A stretch of DNA of 64,000 nucleotides, taken from positions 186,001 to 250,000 of the forward strand of contig JAAVZX010000024.1 of the NCBI GenBank assembly GCA_022791875.1. The letters are read 5' to 3'. The translations under genes and the position numbers were made by a program. The DNA comes from Oscillibacter sp. (GTDB taxonomy: Bacteria > Bacillota > Clostridia > Oscillospirales > Oscillospiraceae). Under the pieces are notes generated by a model that saw only the letters and a list, made by a program, of their open reading frames with translations, was not told the origin of the DNA and did no database searches. Positions 5,331 to 52,611 of the stretch are shown here, piece after piece (the stretch's first letter is position 1; each line of letters starts with the position of its first letter).

Positions 5331-5486
5331 CGGGGGGCCTCCGGCGGCTTACTTTTCTTGAAAGAAAAGTAAGCAAAAGAACTTTTTAACTCGACGCGAA
5401 TCTGGTGGTTGATGGGGGCTTTCTGCGCCGGAACCACGTGCCTGCGTGTGGGGCATACTTTTTCGGTATGCCCCACAATTTTCTTT
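5331..5486 (+). repeat. Family A repeat copy A2 (subtype II), left half of a tail-to-tail pair
   Basis: The head begins at the base after the ylbJ stop. The first palindrome has arms CTTACTTTTCTT/AAGAAAAGTAAG-like, the linker carries AACTCGACGCGAATCTGGTGG-type sequence, and the terminal hairpin is GTGGGGCATAC/GTATGCCCCAC (5448-5476) followed by a T-rich run, so it should act as an intrinsic terminator. Confidence 0.85.
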
Positions 5487-5494
5487 TTAGGGCG

Positions 5495-5668
5495 TAAAAA
5501 AATCTGTGGTCCTTACCTCGAAACGAGGTAAGGACCACCTCGCACCCGTCGCGTTACGGTGCGGAAAGCCTGCGCGCCCACCAGATTCGCGTCGAGTTAA
5601 AGCTCTTTTTGGTTACTTTTTCTCTCGAGAAAAAGTGACCCGCCGGAGGCCCCCCGTAGGCATGGCAC
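5495..5668 (-). repeat. Family A repeat copy A3 (subtype I), right half of the pair
   Basis: Terminal hairpin GTGGTCCTTACCTCG/CGAGGTAAGGACCAC (5506-5538) with seven A's on its outer side (a T-run on the minus strand). The linker, first palindrome with CTCGAG core and head end at 5668. With A2 it fills the 402-base gap before the response regulator. Confidence 0.85.
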
Positions 5669-5732
5669 CTTCGACGTTGACATTTTCCGGGTATGTATGG
5701 TATTCTTTCCACAATGTAAGGAGGGGTGCAGG

Positions 5733-6419
5733 GTGTATCGGATTTTCGTTGTGGAGGATGATGGTGTGATTGCGGGGGTGGTCAGGAGGCATTTGGAGAG
5801 TTGGGGGTATGAGGTGGCTTGTGCGGGGGATTTCAGGGATGTTTTGGGGGAGTTTGTGGCGTTTGAGCCGGAGTTGGTGGTGTTGGATATCTCGCTGCCG
5901 TTTTTTAATGGGTATCATTGGTGTCAGGAAATTCGGAGGGTGTCTAAGGTGCCGATTCTGTTTTTGACTTCGGCGGCGGATAATGTGAACGTCGTTATGG
6001 CGATGCAGATGGGCGGGGACGACCTTTTGGCGAAGCCGTTTGATTTGCAGGTGCTGTCTGCTAAGGTGCAGGCGATGCTGCGGAGGGCCTATGATTTTGG
6101 GCCTGCGGCGTCGCTGATCCGGTGCGGGGAGGCGGTGCTGAATCTGTCTGACGGGTCCTTGAGCGTGGGGGGGAAGCGGGTGGAGCTGACCAAAAATGAA
6201 TTGAAGCTGCTTCAATTGCTTTTGGAACACAAGGGGCAGACGGTTACGCGGGACGCTATGATGACGGCGCTTTGGGAGTCGGACAGCTTTGTGGACGAAA
6301 ATACTCTGTCGGTGAACGTGAACCGGCTGCGGCGGAAACTGGAGGCGGCGGGGCTGTCTGACTTTATACGGACCCGGAAGGGGGAGGGCTACCTGATCCC
6401 TGACGGCGGGACGCAGTGA
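5733..6419 (+). CDS. OmpR/PhoB-type response regulator (BceR-like)
   Basis: About 228 residues. Receiver domain 1-115 with acidic pocket EDD (8-10) and phosphoacceptor Asp52 in VVLDIS; C-terminal winged helix (about 130-225) with ELTKNELKLLQLLLEHKGQ and VNRLRRKLE. The GTG at 5733 is preferred because AAGGAGGGG lies 6 bases upstream. It is followed 12 bases later by a BceS-like kinase; such pairs usually sense peptide antibiotics and switch on an ABC exporter. No exporter follows here. Codon use (many GGG and T-ending codons) differs from most neighbours. Confidence 0.88.
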   Translation: MYRIFVVEDDGVIAGVVRRHLESWGYEVACAGDFRDVLGEFVAFEPELVVLDISLPFFNGYHWCQEIRRVSKVPILFLTSAADNVNVVMAMQMGGDDLLAKPFDLQVLSAKVQAMLRRAYDFGPAASLIRCGEAVLNLSDGSLSVGGKRVELTKNELKLLQLLLEHKGQTVTRDAMMTALWESDSFVDENTLSVNVNRLRRKLEAAGLSDFIRTRKGEGYLIPDGGTQ

Positions 6420-6431
6420 GGGGGCGGGAAG

Positions 6432-7402
6432 ATGCTTCGGGCTTACCTTTTGCGGCAATGGAAGCTGGTGGTTCTGGTGGCGGGGTTCGCGGTATTGAAC
6501 TGGGGTGTGTTCTGGCTGTACCGTTTGCCTGGGGAACCGCTTCTTTACGCTTGGGCGCTGTGTCTGGCGCTGGGGCTGGTGATGTTCGCGGTTGGGTATT
6601 TCCGGTTTGTTCAGAGACACCGGGAGCTGGAGTGGCTTCTGCGGAAGGCCGGGGAGAACGCGCTTCCTCTGCCGCCTGCCAGGGGGCTGCTGGAGCGGGA
6701 TTATCAGGCATTGCTGCAAGCTGTGTGTGGGAGCCGGGCGGCGCTGTCTGTGGAGAACAACAGCCGTTTGCAGGATATGACGGACTACTATACCCTTTGG
6801 GCGCACCAAATCAAGACGCCGATTGCGGCGATGCACCTGCTGTTGCAGGAGACGCCGTGTCCGGAGATGGAGGCGGAGCTGCTGAAAATTGAGCAGTACG
6901 TGGAAATGGTGCTGGGGTATCTGCGGCTGGGGAGTGCGTCTACGGATTATGTGTTCCGTGAGCGGGAACTGGACCCGCTTTTGAGGCAGGCAGTGCGGAA
7001 ATATGCGCGGCTGTTTATTCTGAAGAAAATCTCGCTGGATCTGCGGGAGACGGGGCGGACGGTGCTGACGGATGAGAAGTGGCTGTCGTTTGTGATTGAG
7101 CAATTGTTGAGCAACGCGCTGAAATATACGCCGGAGGGCGGATTCGTATCTATGGGGATGGGGAAACGCTTGTGATTGCGGATAACGGGATTGGGATTCA
7201 GGAGGAGGATTTGCCGCGGGTGTTTGAGAAGGGATTTACGGGGTTTAATGGGCGTGAGAACCGGAAGTCGACGGGGATTGGGCTGTATCTGTGCCGGGAG
7301 GTGTTGGATCGGCTGAACCATGGGATTTCGATCGCGTCGAGGCCGGGGCAGGGAACGCTGGTGCGTCTGGATTTGGGGCGGAGGCCGCGTGTCATAGAAT
7401 AA
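6432..7402 (+). pseudogene. BceS-like sensor histidine kinase, frameshifted
   Basis: The first frame encodes two N-terminal transmembrane segments with a very short loop (about residues 12-57), the intramembrane-sensing layout, then the DHp motif HQIKTP with His125 and the N box (LLSNALKYTPEGG). That frame then runs to a stop at 7175. The ATP-binding remainder (VIADNGIGIQEEDLPRVFEKGF, then STGIGLYLCREVLDRL) continues to 7402 in another frame. Both parts join sensibly if one base is missing at about 7139-7142, giving ...YTPEGG-IRIYGDGETLVIADNG. Either the kinase is truncated before its G boxes, or this is a sequencing error. It sits 12 bases after its response regulator. Confidence 0.85.
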
Positions 7403-7567
7403 TGTGTGGGACCTTCTATTACCATAGAAGGTCCCACTTGCACTTACTGCGTTACCGTGTGACAAGCCTTAACGCCCACCAGAGCATAGAGCGGCATTAA
7501 AGCTCTTTTTGGTTACTTTTTCTCTCGAGAAAAAGTGACCCGCCGGAGGCCCCCCGTAGGCATGGCA
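7403..7567 (-). repeat. Family A repeat copy A4
   Basis: Terminal hairpin GTGGGACCTTCTAT/ATAGAAGGTCCCAC (7406-7437), linker with GTTACCGTGTGAC, first palindrome with CTCGAG core, and the complemented head next to the stop of the minus-strand 3-hydroxyacyl-CoA dehydrogenase. It lies downstream of that gene in its sense orientation and could terminate it. Confidence 0.85.
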
Positions 7568-7568
7568 C

Positions 7569-8501
7569 TCACAGATTATACAGCACCTTCGCCAAGGCAA
7601 TGTAAAGCCGGTCGCGCTCGCGGATAGCCTCGTCGGCCTTGTTGCCGGAGTAGTCGTAGAAGCCGGCGCCGGTTTTGACGCCGTAGCGGCCCTGGGAGAC
7701 GAGGTCTTCGAGGATGGGGTGGCCGTCGGTGCGGTTGCAGAGGGAGCCGAAGAGGTACTTGTTGACGCGGTTGAAGGAGTCGACGCCGTTGAAGTCGCAG
7801 ACGCCGAAGAGGCCGACGGCGGCGTAGCGGAGGCCCAGGCCGCCCTTCCAGACTGTGTCGATGTCCTCGATGGTGGCGACGCCGTTTTCGACGAGGTAGA
7901 GGGCCTCACGTAAGATGGCGTACTGGAGGCGGTTGATGAGGAAGCCGTTGATGTCCTTGCGGACCATGACGGGCTGCTTGCCCAGGTCCTTTACAAGCTC
8001 GTACATCTCCTGGGCGCGGGCGGGGTCGGTCTTCTCGCCGCAGATGATCTCGCACAGAGGCAGCAGGTGGGGCGGATTGAGCCAGTGTTGGCCCATGAAG
8101 CGCTCGGGTTTGTGGATGGGCTTCGCGATTTCGGTGATCAGGAGGCCGCTGGTATTGCTGGCCAGAAGGGCGTCTTCGGGGGCCAGGCGGCTGGCCCACT
8201 CCCAGAAAGCGTGCTTCTCGTCCATCTGCTCCACGATGGTCTCCAGAAGCAGATCGCACTCCCGCATAACTTCCTTATCGGTGGTGTACGTAATGAGCCC
8301 AAGCAGCTCCTGCGACTTCTCCGCAGAAATCAGCTCCGACTTGATCATCCCCTCCTGATTCAGAGCGATCAAATTCTTAGCCCGCTCCAACCCGGACTCC
8401 GACCGATTCCAGACGGTAGTCCTCCACCCCGCCTGCGCATAAACCTGCGCAAAGGAAGCCCCCATAATCCCCGCGCCCGCAATCACAACATGCTTACTCA
8501 T
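7569..8501 (-). CDS. 3-hydroxyacyl-CoA dehydrogenase (3-hydroxybutyryl-CoA dehydrogenase-like)
   Basis: About 310 residues. The N-terminal Rossmann domain has GAGIMG (residues 8-13) for NAD(P). SNTSGL, HWLNPPHLLPLCEII and the C-terminal helical domain (DINGFLINRLQYAILREAL) are family hallmarks; the catalytic His sits in GQHWLNPP. It converts 3-hydroxyacyl-CoA to 3-oxoacyl-CoA, or the reverse in butyrate formation. Start chosen at MSKHVVIAG, with AAAGGA upstream. It stands alone between repeats A4 and B3, so it is likely monocistronic. 'Hydroxybutyryl' specificity is inferred. Confidence 0.88.
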   Translation of the reverse strand: MSKHVVIAGAGIMGASFAQVYAQAGWRTTVWNRSESGLERAKNLIALNQEGMIKSELISAEKSQELLGLITYTTDKEVMRECDLLLETIVEQMDEKHAFWEWASRLAPEDALLASNTSGLLITEIAKPIHKPERFMGQHWLNPPHLLPLCEIICGEKTDPARAQEMYELVKDLGKQPVMVRKDINGFLINRLQYAILREALYLVENGVATIEDIDTVWKGGLGLRYAAVGLFGVCDFNGVDSFNRVNKYLFGSLCNRTDGHPILEDLVSQGRYGVKTGAGFYDYSGNKADEAIRERDRLYIALAKVLYNL

Positions 8502-8592
8502 AAACGAATCCCTGTCCTTTCCAATTTTTGTGGGAGATACCAAAATCATCATACCATACGCCTGGTTTTTTGTAAAGTCCCCTGCTGCGTTG

Positions 8593-8686
8593 GACGAGGG
8601 ACGGGGGGCCTCCGGCGGCCAGAGGGCTTTGCCCTCTGGACTCCCACCAGGGAGGCACGCGCCTCCCTGGACCCTGGCAGATCGGG
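8593..8686 (+). repeat. Family B repeat copy B3
   Basis: Head GGGGGGCCTCCGGCGG, hairpin CCAGAGGGC/GCCCTCTGG (8619-8639), hairpin CCAGGGAGGC/GCCTCCCTGG (8647-8670), tail ACCCTGGCAGATCGGG. It lies between two minus-strand genes. Confidence 0.85.
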
Positions 8687-8712
8687 CTTTGTTGTTGGGG
8701 GTTGCTCCTTTT

Positions 8713-11409
8713 TCAGGCTTCTGCTTCGCGGAGGCGTTCTACGATGGTGTGCTTGGAGATGGCTTGGCAGGTGAGGAGGGGGACCGCTGCGCCCAGAAGC
8801 AGGAAGAAGGGGAGCATGATTACGATGGGGAGAACGGTCAGGTGGTAGGAGAAGAACCAGAACAGGCTGTTGACCGTGTCGCCCAGAAAGGGGCCCAGGC
8901 ATACCGTCATGACCAGGGACGCCAGGAGGGCTAAGAGCGTGTAGTACAGGCCCTCGCAGACCAGCATCGTTTTGAGCTGCTTCCCCGTCATGCCTACGGA
9001 TTGCAGAACCGCCAGCTCACGCTTCCGGGCCAGAATGCCCGTCAGAACCGCGTTGCCGAAGTTCAGCACGCCTACCAGGCCCACAATGAAGCTCAGTGCA
9101 CCGCCCACAATGTAGAACATGTTCCGGAATTCCTCGAACTCTGCCACGTAGTTGGTGCGGCTCTCGTAGTTGTAAAGGGTCTGGACGTTCTCTGTGTAGT
9201 CCGCCAGAAACGCCTCCATCTCCGGCTCCAGCTCGTCGGTGGTGTTGAAGCACCAGTGCATCACGGAATCCGTGCCCGTGAAGTCCTTGAAGACCTCCGC
9301 GTTCAGGACGTATTGGTCCGCGCCGTAGAAGCGGTAGTTGACGGTCTGCCGGACCAGCACCAGGGCGCAGACGGTGAAGGTCTGATCCTCGTATTCCACA
9401 GGGCGGGAGGCGTAGTGCCGGGGGTCCTGGCTGTCATATACGGCGTCGATGTCGTCGATGATCTCGCCGTTGTCGGTGTAATAGTATTCCATTTTATCCA
9501 CGCGGCGCAAGGTGACGGTGTCGCCCACCTTCGCCCAGTGGGAGTCCATGTAGGGCACGCTGTAGTCGTTTTCTATCAGCACGGCGGCAATGGCCTTCTG
9601 ATTTGGGTCGTAGAGGGCGGAGATGTCCCCTTCCACCACGGTGAGCAGGTCCAGAGGAAAGTCTTCCATACCATAGATTTTCGCGCGGTCCATCAGGAAA
9701 CCCTCGTCGTTCCGCACGGCCTCTTTGACCGACTGTTCCACAATCTCCGGCGGGTTCCAGGCCCCGACGCTCTGCCTGTACCAGTCCTCCGGGACAAACT
9801 GCTGCACGTTGCTGACCTGGCCGTAGGTCCGGCCGCTCTCCGTGATGCCCGCGCCGCCTTGTTCGGCCACTTCCGCGATGATTTCCTCCGGGAGGGCGTC
9901 GTCGGCGGAGCGGAACATCAGGGAGGTGTTGAAATAGTTGGCATCGCCCAGAATGAAGTCCACGTCGGCGTTTCGGGTGAGGTACTTGTTCAGGTCGAAG
10001 CCGCTGGCGAAGGTATAGGTCATGGTGGCCAGGACCACGGCCAGGGTCAGGGAGAGGACGGTCACGACGGTTTTGCCCCTGCTGCGGCCCAGGTTCGCCC
10101 AGGCCATGCGGGACAGGGACGCGCCGCTCTGAGCCCTGCGGAGTTTTGGACGCTTCCCGTTTTTCTGCGTACCGCCCTCGGTGCAGCGCACCGCCTCCAC
10201 GGGGGAGACCTTCGCCGCCATCCGCCCCGGCCTTGCGCAGGAGAGGAAGACCGTCACCAGGGAGAACAGCGCCGCCCCGGCGAAAATCACCGGGTGGAAG
10301 GTGACAACGAAGTGCCCGTAGTCCATGCGGTCCAGGATGAGGGAGGACATGCGGGTGCCGATGAGGAAGCCCAGGAGCAGGCCGAAGGGGATGCCGATCA
10401 GGCTGAGAAGCAGGGCCTGCTGGCGGACGATGCGCTTGATCTGCCGCCCCGTGGTGCCGATGGTTTTTAGCAGGCCGTAGAAGCGGATGTCGTTGGTGAC
10501 GGAGATCTGGAAGATGTTGTAGATGATCAGGTAGCCGGTGAAGACAATCAGAAGGGTCAGGAGGATGATGGTCATGATTGCGCCGGCGTCCATGGCCTGG
10601 GCGAACTTGGCCCCAGTGTAGCCCCAGTTGACGCCGATGCCGATATAGTTGTCCGCCATGTGGTCCTCGGACTGATAGCTACGGGCTTCCAGAATGGCGT
10701 TCAGGTCTTCCTTGATGTGCATGGCGTCCTTGAGCATCACGTCCAGGCCCCATTTCCCGGTGAGGGAGTTGGGGTCGCCGCTGCCCAGGGCGCAGAGTTC
10801 CTCCGCGGCGGAGCGGGGGACGAGAATGTGGCTGGCGACGTTCGCCGCGTCATACTCCCACCAGCCGCAGAGGGTGAAGGTCCGGGTGACGGGGATGGGA
10901 TGGGCTGTCAGGTCGTCCAGGTTGAAGGTGACGGTGAACTCCGCGCCGATCTCCGGCTCGATGCCCAGGAGGGCCAGGACACGGGTGTCTGTCGCGGCCT
11001 GGTTGGTCCCTTCCTCGGGGTACGCGCCCTCTATGGGGATGCAGAAGCTGTGGGCCGCGTTGGCGGGCTCCTTGTAGCTTACTTCCACGTGGGACTTGCT
11101 GAAGGGCGGCTCGACGGGCATTCCCACCATGAGGCGCGCGCCGCTCTCCTGAATGAGGGGATCGGCCCGCAGGTCCTCCACCTGCTCCCAGGTGAGGGCT
11201 TTGAAGGTGCCGTGGAAGTCCCCGCCCACCTGGCGAAAATTCTCCTGCTGGTAGGATGTGTTCAGGGACACGGCGGTGGTGAACAGGGAGGTGAAAAGGA
11301 CGGTGGTGAGGGCAATGGCCAGGACGGCCACGATGTTCCGGGTCTTGGCCGCGGCCATGGAGCGGAGGCCCAGGCGGCGGATGCAGCCCTTGTTGGCGAC
11401 GTTCAGCAT
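8713..11409 (-). CDS. FtsX-like ABC transporter permease
   Basis: About 898 residues in two MacB/FtsX-like halves. There is one transmembrane segment near the N-terminus (about 22-45), a large extracellular part (about 46-280), a cluster of segments (about 280-400), a second single segment (about 450-475), another extracellular part, then the last cluster (about 770-890). Members export peptides or lipoproteins or act as antibiotic sensors. The ATG at 11409 follows GGTGAGGG; a GTG at 11418 overlaps the ATPase stop. It forms one locus with the ATPase and two-component pair upstream. BceB-type detoxification is plausible but not proven. Confidence 0.88.
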
Positions 11410-11414
11410 GGCCC

Positions 11415-12101
11415 TCACCCCCGATCCGCGGCGTGGGCGGAACGGACCCGCCCGTCCTCAATGCGGATGATCCGCCCCGCCGTCTGGGCGATCTCCTCGT
11501 TGTGGGTGATCATCACGATGGTCTGCGTAAACTTCTGGCTGGTGACCTTCAGGAGGCCCATGACGTCCTGGCTGGTGCGGGAGTCCAGGTTGCCCGTCGG
11601 CTCGTCGGCCAGGATGATGGCGGGCTTCGCCGCCAGGGCGCGGGCAATCGCCACACGCTGCTGCTGTCCGCCGGAGAGGTTCGAGGGGAGGTTTTGCAGC
11701 TTCTTCTCCAGACCCAAAGTCTCGATGATCTGCCCGATGTAGGCTTTGTCGGGCCGCTGGCCGTCCAGCTGGATGGGGAGAACGATGTTCTCGTAGACGT
11801 TCAGCACGGGGACCAGGTTGTAGTTCTGGAAGACGAAGCCGATCTTGCGGCGGCGGAAGATGGTGAGGGCCTCGTCCTTAAAAGAGAAGATGTTCCGCCC
11901 GTCCACGAAGACCTCGCCGGAGGTGGGGCGGTCCAGGCCCCCCAGCATGTGGAGCAGGGTGGACTTGCCGGAGCCGGAGGTGCCTACCACGGCCAGAAAT
12001 TCCCCCTTCTCCACCTGAATGTCCACGCCGTCCAGGGCCCGGACCTCCGCTTCGCCGCTGCCGTAGATTTTCCGCAGGTTTTTCGTCTCTAAAATCGTCA
12101 T
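11415..12101 (-). CDS. ABC transporter ATP-binding protein (MacB/BceA type)
   Basis: About 228 residues. Walker [10 protein letters not shown] (40-48), Q-loop FQNYNL (91-96), signature LSGGQ (142-146), Walker B IILADEP (162-168), H-loop MITHN. This is the LolD/MacB/BceA subfamily that energises FtsX-like permeases. The ATG at 12101 lies 9 bases from GGAGGT; a TTG at 12107 is too close to that site. The permease follows within a few bases, so the two are cotranscribed. Confidence 0.94.
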
Positions 12102-12218
12102 TTCCAATGTACCTCCATAAGGAAAAGTCTGTACTGCCTTTCGACAATACAGACTATAGCACCGAATTCTTTCCAGATTCTTTCTGAAATCTAACAGTTC
12201 TGAAAGATTTCCGCGCAG

Positions 12219-13792: not shown

Positions 13793-13831
13793 GTGAGCCT
13801 CCGGTATTGGGGGTGCATTTTTGGTTATCGC

Positions 13832-13988
13832 AAAAAATAATCCCTGCGGAACATGGAATGTTCCGCACGCAGGCACATATTCCGGCGCAAAGGCCACAAC
13901 GCCCACCAGATTCGCGTCGAGTTAAAGCTCTTTTCGCTTCCTTTTCTCTCGAGAAAAGGAAGCCGCCGGAGGCCCCCCGTATGCAGGC
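13832..13988 (-). repeat. Family A repeat copy A5
   Basis: Terminal hairpin TGCGGAACAT/ATGTTCCGCA (13845-13867) with an A-rich outer flank (T-rich on the minus strand). It lacks the CACACGG linker motif but keeps ACTCGACGCGAATCTGGTGG-type linker, CTCGAG-centred palindrome and head. It follows the prfC stop directly in sense orientation. Confidence 0.82.
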
Positions 13989-13990
13989 AC

Positions 13991-15643: not shown

Positions 15644-15796
15644 GTGCCTCCGGCGGGTTCCTTTTCTCGAGAGAAAAGGAACCGAAAAGAGCTTTAACTC
15701 GACGCGAACCTGGTGGTTGAAGAAGCCTGGCACACGGTAACGAAGCGTTAGCGAGTGGGACCTTCCATTGGCATGGAAGGTCCCACGGGTTTTTTA
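15644..15796 (+). repeat. Family A repeat copy A6
   Basis: Truncated head (TGCCTCCGGCGG), palindrome with CTCGAG core, linker with CACACGGTAACG, terminal hairpin GTGGGACCTTCCAT/ATGGAAGGTCCCAC (15755-15786) followed by GGGTTTTTTA: a textbook intrinsic terminator shape. Confidence 0.85.
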
Positions 15797-15822
15797 TATT
15801 TGTTGACATGTGTTGCGGTGCA

Positions 15823-17168: not shown

Positions 17169-17275
17169 GGGCGAACCTGCGTGTTCGCCCTGGCAGGCAG
17201 CTGCATCATCCCCAAGAGTGCGGTGGTTGCGGGGGAGGGGCGGACACGCAGGTCCGCCCCTACGGGGTGCATTCC
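17167..17275. repeat. Family C repeat copy C1
   Basis: Two short hairpins, GGGCGAAC/GTTCGCCC (17170-17190 area) and GGGGCGGAC/GTCCGCCCC (about 17238-17261), flanked by TAGGGG and CCCCTACGGGG. They lie directly after the MBL-fold gene stop and share their style with C2. Confidence 0.6.
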
Positions 17276-17286
17276 AGGTGGGTGAT

Positions 17287-17448
17287 CAAAAAATGTGTGG
17301 GTCCTTTCATTCGCATGAAAGGACCCACCTGCACCGGCCCCCGTTACCGTGTGACAGACTTTAACAACCACCAGAGCACAGAGCGGATCTAAATCTCTTT
17401 TCGCTTCCTTTTCTCTCGAGAAAAGGAAGCCGCCGGAGGCCCCCCGTA
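17287..17448 (-). repeat. Family A repeat copy A7
   Basis: Terminal hairpin GTGGGTCCTTTCAT/ATGAAAGGACCCAC (17297-17328) with a run of A on the outer side, linker GTTACCGTGTGACA, CTCGAG palindrome, complemented head. With C1 it fills most of the 436 bases between the MBL gene and the tRNA array. Confidence 0.85.
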
Positions 17449-21644: not shown

Positions 21645-21819
21645 GAGGGGCTGCCAGCCGGGCTTCCGGCCTCCGGCGGCTTCCTTTTCTCGAGAGAAAA
21701 GGAAGCGAAAAGAGCTTTCATACCGCTCTATACCCTGGCAGGTGTTAAAGCCTGTCACACGGTAACGCAGAGAGTGCAAGTGGGACCTTCCATTACCATG
21801 GAAGGTCCCACACATTTTT
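21645..21819 (+). repeat. Family A repeat copy A8 with extended head
   Basis: The extended head (GCTGCCAGCCGGGCTTCCGG then CCTCCGGCGG) is followed by the CTCGAG palindrome, linker GTCACACGGTAACG and terminal hairpin GTGGGACCTTCCAT/ATGGAAGGTCCCAC (21780-21811) with ACATTTTTC after it. Confidence 0.85.
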
Positions 21820-21828
21820 CTGATATAC

Positions 21829-21926
21829 TCCGTAGGGGCGGGCCTCTGTGCCCGCCCGTCCTTCGCAACTGCCATTGTTGCTTGGGATGCATCCCGTAGG
21901 GGCCGCCGCCCTCGGCGGCCCCTCCC
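21829..21926. repeat. Family C repeat copy C2
   Basis: GTAGGGGCGGGC/GCCCGCCC hairpin near 21832-21850, GGGATGCATCCC palindrome (about 21888-21899), then AGGGGCCGCCG/CGGCGGCCCCT. With A8 it fills the 318-base gap before the thioesterase. Confidence 0.6.
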
Positions 21927-42906: not shown

Positions 42907-42935
42907 TGGCAGGGACTATGAAAGGACGGTTCACT

Positions 42936-44706: not shown

Positions 44707-44719
44707 GGAGGGGATGGCA

Positions 44720-45733
44720 ATGACGAATTTTGCGGATTATAAGAATCTGTGGGTCTTCCTGGAGACGGCGGAGGGCAAGGCCAAGAGCGTGGGTCTGGAA
44801 CTCCTGAACCCGGGACGCCGCATCGCGGATCAACTGGGCTGCAAGCTGGTAGCCGTTCTTTTCGGCGCGGACAACGCCGAGGCCGAGAAAGCCGCGGCGG
44901 AATACGGCGCGGATGAGATCATCAGCGTGGAGGGCCCCGACTACGCCGTCTACTTCACCGACGCCTACGCCTACGGAATGCACGTCCTGGTAGAGAAGTA
45001 CAAGCCCGAAATCATCTTCGTAGGCGCGACGAACGTAGGCCGCGACTTTGCCCCCCGCGTCAGCTGCCGTCTCAAAACGGGCCTGACCGCAGACTGCACC
45101 TCCCTGGACATCGACGCCGAAACCGGCAACATGGCCTGGACCCGCCCCGCCTTCGGCGGCAACTTAATGGCGACGATCCTGTGCCCCGACACCCGTCCCC
45201 AGATTGGCACAGTACGCCCCGGCGTCTTCAAAAAGGCCCCGCCCCAACCGGGCAGAACCGTCCCAATCATCAAGGAAAGCATCCCAGTCCCCCAAGAGGA
45301 AATCAAGGTAGAACTGGTAGAATCGGTAAAAGAGATAGCAAACGAACTGGTCAAACTGGAAGACGCAGAAATCATCGTCTCCGGCGGCCGCGGCGTCGGC
45401 GGCCCCGAGGGCTTCGCCCCCGTGCGTGAGCTTGCGAACGCACTAGGTGCCGCCGTCGGTTCCTCCAGAGCCGCTGTAGACGCCGGCTGGATTCCCCACG
45501 CCCACCAGGTAGGCCAAACCGGCAAAACCGTAGGCCCCAAAGTCTACATCGCCTGCGGCATCTCCGGCGCCATCCAGCACCTGGCCGGCATGAGCGGCTC
45601 CGACTGCATCATAGCCATCAACAAAGACCCCGAAGCCCCCATCTTCAAAGTCGCCGACTACGGCATTGTAGGCGACCTCTTCAAGGTCCTCCCCGCTATG
45701 ACGAAGGAAGTCCTGCGTCAGAAGAGCGAGTGA
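44720..45733 (+). CDS. etfA: Electron transfer flavoprotein, alpha subunit
   Basis: About 337 residues. A C-terminal FAD domain (about 210-325) carries [63 protein letters not shown] and [20 protein letters not shown]. It receives electrons from the acyl-CoA dehydrogenase or, if bifurcating, drives crotonyl-CoA and ferredoxin reduction together; which applies is not decidable here. ATG 44720 is 9 bases from AGGAG; ATG 44714 is too close. Repeat A9 starts one base after the stop. Confidence 0.95.
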
Positions 45734-45734
45734 G

Positions 45735-45897
45735 TACGGGGGGCCTCCGGCGGGTTCCTTTTCTCGAGAGAAAAGGAACCGAAAAGAGCTTTAATACCGC
45801 TCTATGCTCTGGTGGTTGTTTGAGTCTGTCACACGGTAACGTGGGAATTGCGAAGTGGTTCTTACCTCGATCGAGGTAAGGACCACTTGGATTTTTT
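45735..45897 (+). repeat. Family A repeat copy A9
   Basis: Head at the etfA stop, CTCGAG palindrome, linker TGTCACACGGTAACG, terminal hairpin AAGTGGTTCTTACCTCGA/TCGAGGTAAGGACCACTT (45853-45888, one G-T pair) followed by ATTTTTTA: probable terminator of the por-etf operon. Confidence 0.87.
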
Positions 45898-46450
45898 ATG
45901 CGCTTTCTGAGGCGCGGCGGACCATGGTTTCTATCATGCCGTCGGCCAGCTCGCAGAGACGGCGGAATTGGGCGCGGAGGTCATAGCGCATTCCGGTGTT
46001 CAGCCATTCCATGATCTGGCCAAAGCAGGCGCATTTGTAGAAGCGGAGGATGATTTCGCGGTCCTGGCCGGAGAGCGGAAGCTCCCCAAAGGCCGCGTCC
46101 GCGTAGCTTTGGACCACCCGGCGGCAGACATCCATCAGATGCACCTCGAAAAGCTCCCGGTGGGCCGACTGGCTGATATGCAGGATGATCAAGCGCTTCT
46201 CCATAGCGAAGCGGGCCGCTGTATCCAGGCAGTCGCCAAGGGAGGGAGCGGCCCCCTGCGCGGCAATAATCTGGTCCGCGTAATCCGTCACAATCTCCTG
46301 GAGCAAAGCCGGGATATCCTTAAAATGATAATAAAACGAATTCCGGTTCACATTACACTCCCGCACGATATCCTTCACCGTAATCTCCCGCAACGCCTGC
46401 GTCTCCAAGAGCCGAAGAAAAGCGTCCATAATAGCCCGTTTCGCCGTCAT
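45896..46450 (-). CDS. TetR-family regulator 1
   Basis: 184 residues. Short TetR helix-turn-helix at the N-terminus (KRAIMDAFLRLLETQALREITVKDIVRECNVNRNSFYYHFKDIPALL), then a helical ligand domain. ATG 46450 follows GGAAGGAG. It overlaps the stop of the second TetR gene by 4 bases, so both are made from one message. Two paired TetR genes next to a membrane transporter suggest ligand-gated control of that transporter. Confidence 0.9.
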   Translation of the reverse strand: MTAKRAIMDAFLRLLETQALREITVKDIVRECNVNRNSFYYHFKDIPALLQEIVTDYADQIIAAQGAAPSLGDCLDTAARFAMEKRLIILHISQSAHRELFEVHLMDVCRRVVQSYADAAFGELPLSGQDREIILRFYKCACFGQIMEWLNTGMRYDLRAQFRRLCELADGMIETMVRRASESA

Positions 46451-47118
46451 AACCGCGTCTCCTTCCTACGATCGGAGCAGGCACCACCCTCCCGCACCGT
46501 TTCGCGTCGAGTTAAAAAGTTCTTTTTGCTTACTTTTTCTTTCAAGAAAAAGTAAGACGCCGCACCATCAGCCGCCCGCTGAGCCGCGGCAATCAGTTCT
46601 TCCCGCGGGACGGACATCCCCTGGTCGAACCACTCTTTCAGCAGCCCGATGAACCCCCAGGTCAGGAAGCTGAGGAAGTAGTCGGTCAGGGCCTGGTCCT
46701 GGGGGTGGAACCAGGTTTCAATGAGGGGCTCCCCGTTTCTGCGGATGAACTGCTGGAGGGTCTGGATGAAGCCGCTGGCCTCGCTGCTGCGGAACAGGAT
46801 TTCGCAGGTTTCCCGGCGGTCCAGGATGAAATCTAAGACAGGTTCCAGGACCGGGCGGACGGTGCCCTCCTCCATCGTCTCCGGGATGTGGGTGTCGATC
46901 AGGACCTGCATCTCGTTCAGAAGGTCCTCCTCCAGGTTTTGCAGGAGGTCGGCGGTGCCGGAGTAGTGGAGGTAGAACGTGCCCCGGTTCATGTCGGCCT
47001 CGTCTGTTACGTCCCGGACGGAAATCTCCGAAAAGGACTTCCTCTTCATAAGCGTCAGCAGGCTTTCTTTCAGGAGCTTCCGCGACCTCCTGGCCCTGCG
47101 GTCCTCCGAGTTCTTCAT
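46447..47118 (-). CDS. TetR-family regulator 2 with repeat-derived C-terminus
   Basis: 223 residues. TetR helix-turn-helix (about 10-60; RKLLKESLLTLMKRKSFSEISVRDVTDEADMNRGTFYLHYSGTADLL) and helical ligand domain to about residue 186. The last 35-40 residues (from AASYFFLKEKVSKKNF on) are encoded by family A repeat A10, so the repeat replaced the original end and carries the reading frame into the next gene. It is divergent from the 953-aa secreted protein gene. GAGGTG lies upstream of ATG 47118. Confidence 0.88.
   Translation of the reverse strand: MKNSEDRRARRSRKLLKESLLTLMKRKSFSEISVRDVTDEADMNRGTFYLHYSGTADLLQNLEEDLLNEMQVLIDTHIPETMEEGTVRPVLEPVLDFILDRRETCEILFRSSEASGFIQTLQQFIRRNGEPLIETWFHPQDQALTDYFLSFLTWGFIGLLKEWFDQGMSVPREELIAAAQRAADGAASYFFLKEKVSKKNFLTRRETVREGGACSDRRKETRL
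46490..46562 (-). repeat. Family A repeat copy A10, truncated and inside a gene
   Basis: Subtype II: the CTTACTTTTTCTT/AAGAAAAAGTAAG palindrome and AACTCGACGCGAAACGGTG linker are kept, the head is cut to GCGGCG and the terminal hairpin is missing. It is read in frame as the C-terminus of TetR 2. Confidence 0.78.
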
Positions 47119-47186
47119 AGCTGCACCTCTTTCGTTGCATTTTTATGAACTTGCCGGTCTTTTAGACATTTTCCGGATTTTGCCTA

Positions 47187-47215
47187 TTGACCCTGTTCTC
47201 TGCCTCTATTATAAT
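47187..47215 (+). promoter_or_regulatory. Sigma-A promoter of the MMPL operon
   Basis: TTGACC (47187-47192), 17 bases, TATAAT (47210-47215). AATCAACA occurs at 47213 and 47231, near the likely start point. Confidence 0.85.
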
Positions 47216-47244
47216 CAACATAGTTCAATAAATCAACAAAAATT

Positions 47245-47270
47245 TTTTAATCGACAACTGCTGATTAAAA
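47245..47270. promoter_or_regulatory. Inverted repeat, possible TetR operator or leader hairpin
   Basis: TTTTAATC (47245-47252), 10 bases, GATTAAAA (47263-47270), ending directly before the GGAGGT ribosome site of the 953-aa gene. Confidence 0.5.
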
Positions 47271-47284
47271 TGGAGGTAATCCTT

Positions 47285-50146
47285 ATGCCGCGCCAAACAT
47301 GGAAGAAACGCACCTTCGCTCTGGCTCTGGCCCTCAGCGTGGCCGCAGCCTGCGTCACGCCCGCCCTGGCCGAGCCCATCGGCGACGGCGTCGCGCCCAC
47401 CTATGACGAAGCCTACTACGCAACCCTGGACTACTACGGAAATTTGGTGGAGGGCAGCGTCGTGAAGAGTTACGCCCTGAACGGCGCGGAGTCCTTCACC
47501 GACTACGGGGCCTACGACGAAGTGGTCAACCTCACCGACCGCACCCCCGCCAGCGTCGCCGGAGACAAGACGGCCTTCCGCTTCGACGGCGGCGCGCCGG
47601 ACCACTTCTACTTCGAGGGCAAGACCCGCACCCCCTTCGACGCCCTCCCCTGGACCGTCACCCTGCGCTATACCCTGAACGGCGTCCCCGCAAAGGCGGA
47701 GGACCTGGCGGGGCAGCAGGGCGTAGTGGAAATCCTGCTGGACATCGTGCCCAACGAGACGGCCAGCGACTACGCCCGCTATAACTACACCCTGGAGGCC
47801 ATGGCCATCTTCAACCAGGACGACATCGTGTCTCTGGAGGCCCCCGGCGCCCAGGTCCAGCTGGTGGGCAACCTGCGGACGGCCCTGTTCCTGGCCCTCC
47901 CCGGCGAGGAACAGCACTTCACCATCCGCGTGGGCAGCAACGACTTCTCCTTCGGCGGCATGACCATTCTGATGGTCCCCGCCACCCTGGCCCAGCTGGA
48001 GGAAATTGCGAAGCTCAGCGAGCGCAAGGACGACCTGGAGGACGACTACGACGCCCTCTCCGGCAGTCTCGACGCCCTCCTGGACAGCCTGAGCAGCATC
48101 CAGAGCGGGCTGTACGCCTCCGCCAGCGGCCTGGACCAGTTGGAAATCGCCCGCGGCACCTTCTCCAACAGCAAGGGGACCCTCTACGAGGGCGCCGACA
48201 CCCTCCGGGGCGACCTGACGGACCTGGCGGTCCTTCTGGAGCCGGTGGAGGAGCGCCTGAAAACCCTGAGCCTCACCGTGACCAGCTCCACCAACGTCCT
48301 GAACGAGCTGACGGACGCAGTGCTGAATTTGCAGGAGCAGTTGGTGGACGTGGAGAAGGCCCTGAAAGACCTGGAGGCGGGGACCGCCGACGTGAAGCAC
48401 ATTCTGGACCTGGCGGGGGACCTGGAGTGGAGCCTCCTGCGCCTGGAGGACGCCCTGGGGGGCACCCATATCAGCACCGACAAGGTGTCCACCAACAGCA
48501 AGGCCCTGGTGGAGAAGGTGAAGAACGTCCACAGCGCCTACGCGGAGACGGATCAGACGGCCTTCATGGAGAAGATGCTGGTACTGAACGGGTCCGGGAC
48601 GGCGGAGGCGAAGGCCCAGGCGGCAGGACTGGCGAAGCTCCTGGCGGCGGACGCGGCGGGCCTCCCGGTGCCCGCGGACCAGCAGGCGAATCTGGCAAAG
48701 GCGAAGCAGCTGGCGGGCGTCCACGCCGCTAAAGGGAGTATCAGCTTCCAGACCTTCTGCGGCCAGCTTCCCGGCGTCACGGAGAGCCAGGCCAAGCAGA
48801 TGGGGGACCTGTGGACCATCTACAGCAGCGGCGGAAATACATCCAACGTAAGGCCCGGCAATCCCGATACCGAGAAGCCGGGAACCACGCCGGAAAAGCC
48901 TGATACAAAGCCGGAGAACCCTGGGACAACTCCGGAGAACCCCGACACGAAGCCGGAGAACCCCGACACGAAGCCGGAGAATCCTGGGACGACTTCGGAG
49001 AACCCTGATACAAAGTCGGAGAATCCTGGAGCAACACCAGAGAAGCCCGAAACGCCTCCGGAAAATACGGACACGACCCTGGAACAGCCTGAAACCCCTG
49101 CGGAAGCAGATCCGGCGGATTCCCAGACGCCCCAGGAAGCCCCCGAAGCATCTCCAGAAACTGCTCCGGAGGAAAACAACCGTACATCCGACAGCGACAC
49201 CACTGAACCCGCCGCGGAGGAAGCCGGCGAAACGCTCACCGCGTCCCTGCTCCACAACGACCCGGCAGACGGCGGAGACTCCGGAACCGACACCCCCACT
49301 ACGCCCCCCAGCACGGAAACACCTGAAAAGCCCACGACGCCTCCCGCCCAAGAGAACACCGTCGGCGGCGCGGTCATCGACCTGATCACCGGGGGCCTGG
49401 ACAGCGCCACGGCCCGCATCGACCAGATCCAGAACCAGGTGACCCGGGAGCTGGAAGAGCTGAAATATCCCACGTCGAAGGTGGCGGGGGACCTGGCGGA
49501 CCTGTGCGGGGACCTGTACCTGCTGTTCCCCATGCTGGACGACGCGGCGGACCTCTCCGCGGCCCTGCGGGCCTCCTCGGGGCTGATCCGGGAAATGCTG
49601 AACTCCGTGGACAGCCTGCGGGAAGAACTGAACGCCTACGAGCCTACCTTGCAGGAGGCCCTTGCCAACGCCGGAACCCTCTCCAAGAGCGCCGTGACCA
49701 CCATCCAGGACACGGAAGCCCTGATTGCCAACGCGGAGAGCGTCCTCCGGACCTCCGGCGCGGAGCTGGATAAGGGAACCCAGCAGTCCCTCAGCGGCCT
49801 GGCCGCCGCCCTCAGACAGACGGCCCGCGCCCTGGCCACTACGAAGGACGTGAAGGACGCCAAGAACACCATCACGGACATCATCGAGGACACCTGGAAC
49901 GAGTACACCGGAGACGTGAACAACCTCCTTCTGATGGACGCCACGGCGGAGCCGGTGTCCCTGACGGACGAACGGAACCCCGCCCCCTCCAGCGTCCAGG
50001 TCCTGATCCGGACCCAGGAGATCAAGGAGGCGGAGCCGGAGAAGGAGGCGGAGGCGGAAGCCGTGAAGGCTGAGACGACCTTCTGGGACCGTGTGGTCCA
50101 GATGTTCCGGGACTTCTGGCAGGCCATTACCGGAATTTTCCGCTGA
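47285..50146 (+). CDS. Secreted coiled-coil accessory protein of an MMPL transporter
   Basis: 953 residues. Signal peptide (about 1-30; ALALALSVAAACVTPALA), an extracellular domain to about 240, then long helical heptad-rich stretches (about 250-450) with many Leu/Asp. A low-complexity Pro/Glu/Thr linker (about 522-695) has repeated PENPDTK and PENPGTT units. A second helical region follows (about 700-900), then a possible membrane-proximal end (FWDRVVQMFRDFWQAITGIF). No family is recognised with confidence. It starts 70 bases after a strong promoter, with GGAGGT at 8 bases, and is followed 21 bases later by the MMPL gene. Confidence 0.85.
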   Translation: MPRQTWKKRTFALALALSVAAACVTPALAEPIGDGVAPTYDEAYYATLDYYGNLVEGSVVKSYALNGAESFTDYGAYDEVVNLTDRTPASVAGDKTAFRFDGGAPDHFYFEGKTRTPFDALPWTVTLRYTLNGVPAKAEDLAGQQGVVEILLDIVPNETASDYARYNYTLEAMAIFNQDDIVSLEAPGAQVQLVGNLRTALFLALPGEEQHFTIRVGSNDFSFGGMTILMVPATLAQLEEIAKLSERKDDLEDDYDALSGSLDALLDSLSSIQSGLYASASGLDQLEIARGTFSNSKGTLYEGADTLRGDLTDLAVLLEPVEERLKTLSLTVTSSTNVLNELTDAVLNLQEQLVDVEKALKDLEAGTADVKHILDLAGDLEWSLLRLEDALGGTHISTDKVSTNSKALVEKVKNVHSAYAETDQTAFMEKMLVLNGSGTAEAKAQAAGLAKLLAADAAGLPVPADQQANLAKAKQLAGVHAAKGSISFQTFCGQLPGVTESQAKQMGDLWTIYSSGGNTSNVRPGNPDTEKPGTTPEKPDTKPENPGTTPENPDTKPENPDTKPENPGTTSENPDTKSENPGATPEKPETPPENTDTTLEQPETPAEADPADSQTPQEAPEASPETAPEENNRTSDSDTTEPAAEEAGETLTASLLHNDPADGGDSGTDTPTTPPSTETPEKPTTPPAQENTVGGAVIDLITGGLDSATARIDQIQNQVTRELEELKYPTSKVAGDLADLCGDLYLLFPMLDDAADLSAALRASSGLIREMLNSVDSLREELNAYEPTLQEALANAGTLSKSAVTTIQDTEALIANAESVLRTSGAELDKGTQQSLSGLAAALRQTARALATTKDVKDAKNTITDIIEDTWNEYTGDVNNLLLMDATAEPVSLTDERNPAPSSVQVLIRTQEIKEAEPEKEAEAEAVKAETTFWDRVVQMFRDFWQAITGIFR

Positions 50147-50167
50147 CAGGAAAGGAGCGGGACCTTT

Positions 50168-52321
50168 ATGATCGAAAAAATTGCCCATACGCTGACGCGC
50201 AAACCCCGTTTCGTAGCCCTGGTGGCGGTCCTGATGCTGATTCCGGCGGGCCTGGGCTTCGTGGCCACCCGCATCAACTATGATATTCTCTCCTACCTGC
50301 CCCAGGACCTGCCCTCCTCCCAGGGCGAGCAGCTTCTGGAGGAACCGTTTCAGATGGCGGCGACCAGTATGCTGATCGTGGAGGGAATGCCCGCGGGGTA
50401 CACGAACCGGCTGATTCAGGATATCAAGGACGTTCCCGGCGTGTCCAGCGCGGTCTGGATCAGCAATCTGGTGGGCATCCAGGTGCCGGTGGAGATGATT
50501 CCGGCGGATTTTCGGGAGATGTTCTTCTCGGGGCAGGCTACCATGATGCTGATTCAGTACGACCACCCCGGCGCGTCCGATGAGACGATGGAGGCCATTC
50601 AGCAGGTGCGGAATGTGTGCAATGAGCGCTGCTTCCTGGCGGGATTCTCCGTGGTGATCAAGGATACGCGGGACGTGATGGACAGCGAGCTTCCTGTTTT
50701 CGTGGGGCTGGCGGTGCTTCTGGCCCTGGTGGCGATGAGCGTGACGTTGGAGTCCACGGTGCTCCCCTTCGTGTATCTGGCCAGCATCGGTATGGCCGTT
50801 GTTTACAACTTCGGCAGCAATATTTTCCTCGGAGAGATTTCGTACATCACTAAGGCAATCGCCGCCGTTCTCCAACTGGGCGTTACGATGGACTACTCCA
50901 TCTTCCTCTACCACCGTTACGAGGAAGAGCGGGAGCACTATGAGGATAAGCGGGACGCTATGACCCAGGCGATTATCGCGGCCTTCCGGTCCCTGTCGGG
51001 CAGCAGCATGACTACGATTGCGGGCTTTCTGGCCCTGTGCTTCATGCGGCTGACCCTGGGCAAGGATATCGGCATCGTCATGGCGAAGGGCGTTGTGCTG
51101 GGCGTGGCGACGGTGATTCTGGTGCTCCCGTCCCTGGTGCTGGTGTTTGACAAGCAGATTGACAGGCACCATCACAGGACCCTGATTCCGTCCTTTGACC
51201 GGGTGAACAGGATGATTTACAAGGCCCGCGTACCGCTGGTGATTCTGACGCTCGTACTGTTCCTTCCGGCGGTCTACGCCCAGAAGCACGCCAATATTTA
51301 CTACAAGCTGGACGAATCCCTCCCCCGGGACCTCCCGTCCATCGTCAGCAACGAAAAGCTGAAGGACGACTTCGACATGGCAACCAGCCACTTTGTGGTC
51401 CTGCGGGACGATCTTTCCTCCGCGGACATGGCGGAGATGGAGGAACAATTGGAGGACATTCCGGGCATTACGTCCCTGGTTTCCTACCACAGCATGTTAG
51501 GCACCGGCATTCCGGACTTCTTCATCCCGGACACCGTAAAAGATATGCTCCGCCAGGAGGGCTACCAGCTCATGATGATCAACTCCAGCTACGCCCCCGC
51601 TACGGATGAGGTGTCGACGCAGCTGGACGCCATGAACGAGATTCTCCACCGCTACGACCCGGAGGCCATGATCACAGGCGAGGGCGCGATGTACCGCGAC
51701 CTGATTGACACTTCGTCAGTGGATTTCAGAGTGACGAATTACATCTCAATTGCCGCCATTTTCCTGATAATCGCCATCGTATTCCGCTCCATCACCATCC
51801 CAGCAGTCCTGGTTGCCACAATAGAGCTGGCCATTTTCATCAACCAAGGCATCTGCTATTTCACCGGCACCGAAATCCCCTTCATAGCCCCCACGATCAT
51901 CAGCTGCGTCCAACTGGGCGCGACAGTAGACTACGCGATCCTAATGACCTCCAGATTCCAGGAGGAACTAAAGAAGGGCCTAACGAGAAAGGAAGCCATC
52001 CAAATAGCCGCCTGTTCCTCCGACGCCTCGATAGTAACCAGCGCCCTAGTCCTATTCTGCGCCACCCTAGGCGTCTCCTTCGTCTCCTCCATCGACCTAA
52101 TCGGCGCCATCTGCGTCATGCTGGCCCGCGGCGCCCTTATCTCCGCCGTCGTCAGCATCTTCCTGATGCCCGCCATCCTCTGCGTCTGCGAACCCATCTT
52201 CCAGCACACCAGCTGGAAGTGGAAGACACCGCCGCCACCGCCGCCACCGCCGCCCGACGACGGGGACGAGGACGAGGGACGGGGGGCCTCCGGCGGCTTA
52301 CTTTTCTTGAAAGAAAAGTAA
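50168..52321 (+). CDS. MMPL/RND-family transporter
   Basis: 717 residues, about twelve transmembrane helices in two halves (one helix, large loop, five helices, repeated), with MMPL motifs QLGVTMDYSIFLYHRYEEE (about 240) and QLGATVDYAILMTSRFQEEL (about 585), whose Asp-Tyr pairs relay protons. It exports lipids or hydrophobic drugs. The C-terminal tail has nine prolines, then an acidic stretch; its last residues (GRGASGGLLFLKEK) and stop codon come from repeat A11. TetR regulators and the secreted protein are next door. The distal third is rich in otherwise rare CTA, ATA and AGA codons. Confidence 0.93.
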   Translation: MIEKIAHTLTRKPRFVALVAVLMLIPAGLGFVATRINYDILSYLPQDLPSSQGEQLLEEPFQMAATSMLIVEGMPAGYTNRLIQDIKDVPGVSSAVWISNLVGIQVPVEMIPADFREMFFSGQATMMLIQYDHPGASDETMEAIQQVRNVCNERCFLAGFSVVIKDTRDVMDSELPVFVGLAVLLALVAMSVTLESTVLPFVYLASIGMAVVYNFGSNIFLGEISYITKAIAAVLQLGVTMDYSIFLYHRYEEEREHYEDKRDAMTQAIIAAFRSLSGSSMTTIAGFLALCFMRLTLGKDIGIVMAKGVVLGVATVILVLPSLVLVFDKQIDRHHHRTLIPSFDRVNRMIYKARVPLVILTLVLFLPAVYAQKHANIYYKLDESLPRDLPSIVSNEKLKDDFDMATSHFVVLRDDLSSADMAEMEEQLEDIPGITSLVSYHSMLGTGIPDFFIPDTVKDMLRQEGYQLMMINSSYAPATDEVSTQLDAMNEILHRYDPEAMITGEGAMYRDLIDTSSVDFRVTNYISIAAIFLIIAIVFRSITIPAVLVATIELAIFINQGICYFTGTEIPFIAPTIISCVQLGATVDYAILMTSRFQEELKKGLTRKEAIQIAACSSDASIVTSALVLFCATLGVSFVSSIDLIGAICVMLARGALISAVVSIFLMPAILCVCEPIFQHTSWKWKTPPPPPPPPPDDGDEDEGRGASGGLLFLKEK

Positions 52322-52432
52322 GCAAAAGAACTTTTTAACTCGACGCGAATCTGGTGGGTGTTGAAGGCTGTTGCGCAGTAACCATGTGCCTGCGTGTGGG
52401 GCATACCATCCTGGTATGCCCCACGGTTTTTC
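52279..52432 (+). repeat. Family A repeat copy A11 (subtype II), left half of second tail-to-tail pair
   Basis: Head, CTTACTTTTCTT/AAGAAAAGTAAG palindrome, AACTCGACGCGAATCTGGTGG-type linker, terminal hairpin GTGGGGCATACC/GGTATGCCCCAC (52396-52424) and GTTTTT. Its first 43 bases are coding in the MMPL gene. Confidence 0.87.
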
Positions 52433-52444
52433 AGTTTACATAAG

Positions 52445-52611
52445 AAATCTGTGGGACCTTCTATCGCAATAGAAGGTCCCACTTGCACCTGCCCCGTTAC
52501 CGTGTGACAGGCTTTAACGCCCACCGCACCGTAGAGCGGTATGAAAGCTCTTTTCGCTTCCTTTTCTCTCGAGAAAAGGAAGCCGCCGGAGGCCCCCCGT
52601 AGGTACGCACC
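52445..52611 (-). repeat. Family A repeat copy A12 (subtype I), right half of the pair
   Basis: Terminal hairpin GTGGGACCTTCTAT/ATAGAAGGTCCCAC (52451-52482), linker GTTACCGTGTGACAGG, CTCGAG palindrome, complemented head ending in GTAGGTACGCACC. With A11 it fills the 347 bases before the CoA-transferase. Confidence 0.87.

Follow-up and report, generated by a model that had tools for sequence, protein, structure and literature searches.

In a window of 64,000 nucleotides (nt) of Oscillibacter sp. DNA, which belongs to a genome of 2.95 Mb in 88 contigs that is 84.6% complete, a dispersed element, here named family A, couples a first hairpin (stem S1, with arms X and R) to a purine segment (D) that lies behind it and reproduces the stem as a mirror image. 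The computations favour, with a rough probability of 0.6, the reading of family A as a mobile modular 3'-end cassette, in which this S1 and D core has been joined in the present lineage to a head and a terminator. The observations comprise the many copies, the covariation of S1 and of the terminal hairpin, the T tracts, the coupling of D, a second pairing (S2) of the S1 loop outside this genome, the adjacency to stop codons in related genera, and sites free of the element. The twelve places (A1 to A12) at which a sequence-only reading of the window had located copies were re-examined; the mirror-coupled segment D, its probable pseudoknot elsewhere, the wide spread of the core and the position flush with stop codons are new beyond that reading.

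According to the mechanism proposed, the cassette would enter at or just behind a stop codon and join the 3' untranslated region, the conserved core being stem S1 with the purine segment D. Elsewhere the S1 loop would pair with the sequence behind D into an H-type pseudoknot, with D running along S1 and forming putative triples, A opposite U-A pairs and G opposite C-G pairs. The loop appears in this lineage to have shrunk to about 2 nt, with D still tracking S1, and the core to have been joined to a GC-rich head upstream and to an intrinsic terminator downstream; convergent cassette pairs may form a bidirectional terminator. The cassette would be transcribed with its gene, and the core may fold in the mRNA after the last ribosome leaves, guarding the message end or slowing the terminating ribosome, whereupon the terminal hairpin would end transcription. 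An enzyme acting in trans presumably moves the element.

Coupling of segment D to the first stem

Within the 1.41 Mb of the genome examined, 197 first-hairpin units were found, 166 of them with the head word CCTCCGGCGG. The A run of D has the length of the runs in both S1 arms, and its G or A follows the loop-flanking pair of S1, G going with C..G and A with T..A; D is, in other words, the mirror image of R and the complement of X in the same reading direction. The run length was matched between D and the stem in 183 of the 193 parsed copies (permutation mean 88, maximum 107) and the loop-flanking base in 189 (mean 105, maximum 125), both being matched in 179, and among the 42 distinct S1+D strings of the genome the match was full in 28. 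A mutual-information screen by columns over the 197 units placed the X-D pair third, on a par with the true stem pairs, and a scan of 8-mers in this genome gave 130 parallel complements, whereas three control relations gave 9, 4 and 4, and a 3-mer-shuffled control made from 40 of the 80 own-genome stretches gave 0. S1 itself covaries, as the sequence-only reading had claimed while missing the coupling to D: in 46 sequences 97.4% of the cells were paired and 44 cells were changed on both sides, as compared with 10.9 in shuffles and at most 12 after sliding.

The order of the runs was assessed at sites with unequal T/A runs, in this genome and in the wide set of loci from other bacteria that is described below. 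The mirror order was followed at 41 own-genome sites (7 of them with trivial 2/1 runs), the first run only at 3 and neither at 3; the corresponding counts were 48, 21 and 10 for the seed sites of the wide set, 15 (4 of them trivial 2/1 runs), 5 and 4 for its non-seed sites, and 2, 1 and 0 in Paraburkholderia, while the direct order was found 0 times in every set. The non-seed sites follow the mirror rule with runs such as T3CT4/A3GA4 and T5CT2/A5GA2. The candidate that D is a direct repeat of the 3' arm was rejected, there being no direct case and the own-genome 8-mer scan also contradicting it. Since copying by a polymerase makes no mirror repeats, the coupling of D calls for a functional cause, unless a chain of coincidences produced it, and D alongside S1 would represent the signature of a covarying triple helix, the triples themselves being predicted from the sequence. 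As a covariation signal, a mirror-coupled third strand is unusual, and its natural variants across phyla could serve for testing RNA (or DNA) triplexes.

A rival explanation is by ordinary intergenic repeats, i.e., palindromes resembling the repetitive extragenic palindromes (REPs) and terminators copied by recombination, with covariation produced by template switching and the coupling of D by a few haplotypes. The arms are near-perfect palindromes that template switching could maintain, the copies of one genome do share haplotypes (the 42 distinct strings), and REPs too lie mainly behind genes (PMC3733652). However, template switching gives direct or inverted copies, yet the mirror relation of D to the stem recurs in the own genome and across other genera and phyla, the first runs ranging from 3 to 7, and the run length and the loop-flanking base, which are matched together in nearly all parsed copies (179/193), interleave along the sequence, which makes this explanation quite improbable.

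Terminal hairpin and expansion in the genome

With the terminal arms anchored by script for the covariation counts, terminal hairpins of 14 bp were found in 103 copies among the 197 units, 34 of them distinct, and 11 of the 14 pair positions covary, with two or more Watson-Crick forms each. In the 34 distinct hairpins 459 of 476 cells were Watson-Crick, versus 336 on average and at most 372 in 2000 arm shuffles, so the covarying terminal arms reported before were recovered. Only hairpins scoring at least 9 with a family-type arm (n = 145) were taken for the count of flanking runs; of these, 110 have a T4 run in the 12 nt that follow the hairpin and 7 an A4 run in the 12 nt that precede it. The GC-rich hairpin with a U tract that characterises an intrinsic transcription terminator is thus present, and the T-rich, terminator-like end proposed earlier stands. 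The reading of the terminal hairpin with its T run as an intrinsic terminator, in the orientation of the sequence-only reading, is supported because the T run follows so many of the family-type hairpins, and the elements probably help to stop transcription at gene ends. That the covariation implies a folded RNA or a single-stranded DNA had also been stated; the covariation holds, and by itself it does not settle between the two. Predicted folds of five window copies had z-scores from -1.2 to -5.3.

The recurrence of the head, 16 bases in its exact form, is not due to chance, because 285 exact occurrences were counted in the genome versus 0 for the reversed control. A single exact head was found in 3 of 60 other genomes of the genus, in every case within an open frame, of 197 to 567 codons, and the description of family A as a copied structured element gains accordingly. 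All 38 cases of units less than 420 nt apart are convergent; exact heads face outward at both ends in 16 of these pairs and at one end in 14, single units being without such ends. By our own sorting, the partners share the class of terminal hairpin in only 4 of the 38 pairs, as if a long perfect palindrome were avoided; the 38 comprise the window pairs at 5332-5655 and 52281-52598 and 36 others from the own-genome stretches.

Position at gene ends and stop codons

The position relative to genes was derived from our own simple reading-frame calls. Out of 177 own-genome copies (the 197 units minus 20 at stretch ends, with 6 copies inside a called gene), 117 lie behind a gene of the same orientation, the distance being at most 30 nt in 96, which extends to the 1.41 Mb examined the earlier observation of copies behind gene stops in sense orientation; a co-oriented gene lies within 150 nt before the head in 107 cases versus 43. 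For 90 exact-head units a frame end was found within 80 nt in 56, of which 48 end 1 to 18 nt before the head. The location is, as for REPs, mainly downstream of coding regions.

In related genera S1 starts directly after the stop codon, with a gap of zero, in 16 of 23 framed units (TAA in 10, TGA in 6), this count being drawn from 46 units of 38 out of 40 stretches, mostly from two genomes (G212 and G115), and the 23 being those that have the end of a frame of 70 codons or more no further than 60 nt upstream; two stretches, L280 and L310, gave no units by this parse. In the wide set a zero gap occurred 6 times in 120 sites versus 0.47 per offset for offsets 7 to 40, and the gene orientation was mixed, the left neighbour being co-oriented in 50 and opposite in 47. 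The flush position is not universal, as in Xanthomonas-like records another hairpin is seen by eye between the gene and the core. For mobile elements, insertion flush with a stop codon would represent a novel target rule.

Occurrence of the core elsewhere and its probable pseudoknot

A covariance model, R1, built on 46 sequences with 13 pairs, matched 36 of 150 genomes of the bacterial family, in 32 of 106 genera, and among the 36 there was no genome of the same genus besides the own one; at least 31 matches were obtained in this genome and in seven others, with at most 40 candidates scored per genome. The strict core pattern occurs 1 to 76 times per genome in 24 genomes chosen for carrying a seed match, and its backward control 1 time in each of two genomes and 0 times in the others. 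The S1 pattern without D matched at least 115 stretches in the named genome collection (the wide set), and the titles among the matches listed include Pseudomonadota, Desulfobacterales, Bacteroidota, Bacillota, Nitrospirae, Verrucomicrobia, Lentisphaerae, Neomarinimicrobiota and Latescibacterota, with several isolates, e.g., Stenotrophomonas, Xanthomonas, Lysobacter, Leeuwenhoekiella and Papillibacter; single records may be contamination because many of the matched records are bins. When a loose pattern was applied to the matches listed, 114 of 123 sites had D on just one side of the palindrome, 2 on both sides and 7 on neither. Of 109 distinct sites, parsed by demanding a D-like run so that sites without D dropped out, 84 had the same run in D as in S1 (permutation mean 34, maximum 50).

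The apical loop of the same sites can pair with the sequence behind D. This pairing, S2, reaches at least 5 bp in 34 of the 109 sites versus a shuffled mean of 6 and maximum of 12, and at least 4 bp in 59 versus 22 and 35, respectively. For the 71 sites with loops of at least 6 nt, tested with 500 shuffles, S2 pairs 2 to 5 beat every shuffle, being Watson-Crick in 44, 49, 42 and 37 sites versus shuffled maxima of 39, 36, 35 and 34. In these other genomes the loop of stem 1 thus pairs downstream with covariation, as is expected of an H-type pseudoknot, and because a stem-bridging loop there runs parallel to the 5' strand, the mirror relation of D fits this fold; stem, loop strand and D together look like an H-type pseudoknot layout.

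In Paraburkholderia the core sits in composites, roughly 0.6 to 0.8 kb long, in which two units converge. Within 110 nt of the core, CACACGG was found in 16 of 30 units from ten Paraburkholderia stretches and CACACGG(C/T)AAC in 6 of the 30, and the likeness to the window linker GTCACACGGTAACG suggests a homology beyond the core. BLAST of an 81-base core from one wide-set locus (L171) left phages and E. coli without a match and returned 23 plasmid records, 13 of them longer than 1 Mb. Further common pieces, AACTCGC..GCTCAGACA and CTGCGCTYCTCG, stand to the right of the core in L126, L158, L164, L205 and L231 and belong perhaps to a larger structured RNA; hairpins around CATCCATG were seen downstream of the core in L130, L149, L154 and L206, in records from at least two phyla. 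In the genome G401 the core lies repeatedly within about 110 nt of contig starts, as if the surrounding repeat broke the assembly.

A wider reading, held tentatively and at somewhat less than even odds, is that of an unnamed pan-bacterial mobile RNA element that would have a pseudoknot core with a covarying triple helix, sit flush on more than one type of stop codon as if its placement were linked to translation or to mRNA, and be domesticated in this lineage as a portable terminator; the neighbouring repeat family B, described at the end, could be a further solution based on this triplex principle.

Turnover, possible mobility and strand

Three loci were found with and without the element between species, as a presence/absence comparison suggested by the sequence-only reading had anticipated; the target-site duplications sought in the same comparison are a different matter, as told below. 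The truncated copy A10 was absent from 5 of 5 same-genus orthologues aligned. At a second locus, in another genus, where 39 of 41 genomes matched and ten were aligned, the element lies directly behind TAA in 2 of the 10 (one of them rearranged) and is missing in 8. The Paraburkholderia composite was present in 5 of 6 aligned sequences, and the syntenic site of P. phymatum is without it. We infer the direction of change at the three loci. If insertion is indeed flush with stop codons, the old question of the role of extragenic palindromes at gene ends would become open to direct tests, because related species offer loci with and without the element.

Alternatively, the element could act as single-stranded DNA, in which a single-strand transposase or recombinase would recognise the hairpin together with D; the terminator would then be a by-product retained by selection. 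The high copy number with its patchy spread over genera (32/106) and genomes (36/150) of the bacterial family, no second one of this genus among them, the outward exact heads at both (16/38) or one (14) of the ends of convergent pairs, the conservation of the core sequence across phyla and a pyrimidine-purine.purine order, which would fit a DNA purine-motif triplex, are all in keeping with this. However, adjacency to a stop codon that is either TAA or TGA is hard to explain by a DNA target, the T tracts speak against it, and PF01797 (Y1 transposase) had 0 matches in the own, incomplete genome (other transposase families not searched), as compared with matches in 5 of 14 control genomes. We regard this alternative as unlikely. 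Mobilisation by a resident enzyme of the IS200 type or of the REP-associated tyrosine transposases (RAYTs) was rejected on the same missing PF01797 match, within the same limits of the search.

Several results weigh against the cassette reading. In this genome 14 of the 42 distinct S1+D strings are not fully triple-matched, and the copies are related, so that the permutation tests overstate independence; the wide-set parse, as said, had dropped the sites without D. The 8-mer scan in the wide-set loci gave 27 parallel complements and 36 reverse complements, a result that is not decisive because the words there are nearly mirror-symmetric. An S2 of 3 bp was not found in 22 of the 109 sites, S2 pair 1 was Watson-Crick in 35 of 71, no better than the shuffle mean of 37.8, and in the own-genome copies, those of the window included, S2 is not demonstrable because the S1 loop has only about 2 nt. 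No target-site duplication was readable at the three loci, where the flanks are too diverged, and no mobilising gene was found by the PF01797 search. As to the strand, the own-genome mismatches, read in the sense of the sequence-only reading, comprise 32 A.C versus 7 G.U in the terminal hairpin and 27 A.C versus 2 G.U in S1, 25 of these S1 mismatches coming from one haplotype; an A.C excess would favour a fold on the opposite strand, because A.C reads there as G.U, and the same core on that strand would form a pyrimidine triplex in the major groove, a type well known from RNA. Most of the mismatches come from few inherited haplotypes, and counted by independent events the A.C bias is weak. The wide-set S2 sites with at least 3 of 4 pairs gave 4 G.U and 9 A.C, but 8 of these A.C fall on pair 1, at which D may have slipped. 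The G.U and A.C counts, tried as a criterion, thus do not settle the strand; the T tracts and the gene position favour that of the sequence-only reading.

Comparison with known families

The absence of a named family, stated earlier, was confirmed for Rfam 15, which at the gathering cut-off gave only tRNA in the window and no match in 18 of the at least 115 wide-set loci; at E<=1, 7 wide-set loci yielded two matches, both off the core:

L219: Rfam match at 758-889, core at 1823-1854
L126: Rfam match at 4694-4727, core at 2320-2349

Searches of the open-licence literature by sequence words and by concepts returned no description of the element.

The nearest likeness lies in the GTAG/CGTC REPs and the bacterial interspersed mosaic elements (BIMEs). 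The REPs are palindromes situated mainly downstream of genes (PMC3733652) that carry an unpaired GTAG or CGTC tag, the GTAG type being associated with RAYT enzymes (PMC3733652, PMC2817692), and their GTAG ends often give a TAG stop codon to the flanking frame (PMC3733652, PMC2817692). Family A shares with the REPs and BIMEs so described the many copies of short palindromes, mostly behind genes, often as dimers of opposite orientation, and unevenly distributed between species (PMC3733652, PMC2817692). Unlike in the REPs, S1 has no unpaired tag and its ends are paired (CTAC..GTAG, CTTCC..GGAAG, GTTAC..GTAAC), S1 is followed by the mirror-coupled segment and elsewhere also by the putative pseudoknot strand, and the terminator belongs to the unit of the element, the genome being without a PF01797 match. 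Many heads are preceded by TAC, i.e., by GTA on the other strand at the outer head edge.

REPs within 15 nt of E. coli stop codons reportedly stall terminating ribosomes, in the work of Liang, Rudd and Deutscher. These have in common with family A a stable structure right where the coding sequence ends, but here the stem can start at the first base past the stop codon and the fold is another one. Telomerase RNA, the SAM-II riboswitch and viral frameshift pseudoknots are H-type pseudoknots with triple helices, in which, as proposed here, one loop lies along the stem; they are, however, single functional RNAs, whereas the present element is dispersed and without an Rfam match. The terminal inverted repeats of miniature inverted-repeat transposable elements (MITEs) may have a counterpart in the identical outward-facing 16-base heads that end some convergent pairs of family A. 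Family A differs from MITEs in that single units are common, and neither a parent transposon nor, with the flanks as diverged as they are, a target-site duplication was found.

Copies in the window and neighbouring repeats

The shared layout ascribed to the twelve window copies holds for S1, the first palindrome, which was found at all 12 places, and less so for the other parts, as the exact 16-base head is present in 9 of the 12, A6 and A8 (at 15644 and 21645) have of the head only CCTCCGGCGG, and A10 (at 46490) is without head and terminal hairpin. The centre of S1, described as usually CTCGAG, is either CTCGAG or CTTGAA, with CTTATAA as a rare form. Linker 1 (GTCACACGGTAACG) is exact in 6 of the 12 copies and has one mismatch in a seventh, and the second linker (CTCGACGCGAA..) stands alone in the remaining 5. 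A third stem proposed in the linker, GCTTTAA with TTAAAGC, was rejected as not kept, both exact halves occurring together in 1 of 96 linker-2 copies. The copies are as follows:

A1, 2529..2680, plus strand: head, S1 (CTCGAG), D (AAAAAGAGC), linker 2, terminal hairpin TGCGGAACCT..; convergent with a family B unit (head 2807, minus strand)
A2, 5332..5490, plus strand: head, S1 (CTTGAA), D (AAAAGAAC), linker 1, terminal hairpin GTGGGGCATAC and T tract; begins 1 nt past the end of the open reading frame (ORF) 4413-5330
A3, 5495..5655, minus strand: hairpin GTGGTCCTTACCTCG and T tract; convergent partner of A2
A4, 7395..7555, minus strand: head, S1, D, linker 2, hairpin GTGGGACCTTCTAT
A5, 13830..13978, minus strand: head, S1, D, linker 1, hairpin TGCGGAACAT
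A6, 15645..15797, plus strand: short head CCTCCGGCGG, S1, D, linker 1, hairpin GTGGGACCTTCCAT and T6
A7, 17285..17445, minus strand: head, S1, D, linker 2, hairpin GTGGGTCCTTTCAT and T6
A8, 21645..21822, plus strand: extended head GGGGCTGCCAGCCGGGCTTCCGGCCTCCGGCGG, S1, D, linker 2, hairpin GTGGGACCTTCCAT
A9, 45738..45900, plus strand: head, S1, D, linker 2, hairpin GTGGTTCTTACCTC (one G.T pair) and T6; begins 4 nt past the end of ORF 44714-45733
A10, 46475..46557, minus strand: truncated copy with S1, D and the start of linker 1, at the 3' end of ORF 46447-47118
A11, 52281..52440, plus strand: head, S1 (CTTGAA), D, linker 1, hairpin GTGGGGCATACC and T tract
A12, 52440..52598, minus strand: hairpin GTGGGACCTTCTAT; convergent partner of A11

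Family B, with heads in the window at 2807 (minus), 8603 (plus), 29629 (plus) and 31961 (minus), has the same or a similar head followed by two GC-rich hairpins (CCAGAGGGCTTTGCCCTCTGG ACTCCC ACC AGGGAGG..). The bases behind its first hairpin largely mirror the arm in the main variants (ACTCCC, ACCCC, ATTCTCC) and do not mirror it in the CCAGCCC type; several units stand, by eye, just upstream of genes. A GTAG-tagged hairpin repeat (CCGTAGGGGCGG..) is often found behind family A units, in the window at about 21820-21850 (plus) and 17235-17265 (minus), and looks like a GTAG REP, though the genome gave no Y1 transposase match. Short G-rich repeats (GACGAGGGAC and alike) lie immediately 5' of some heads, in the window at about 8590-8602 and 52260-52280.

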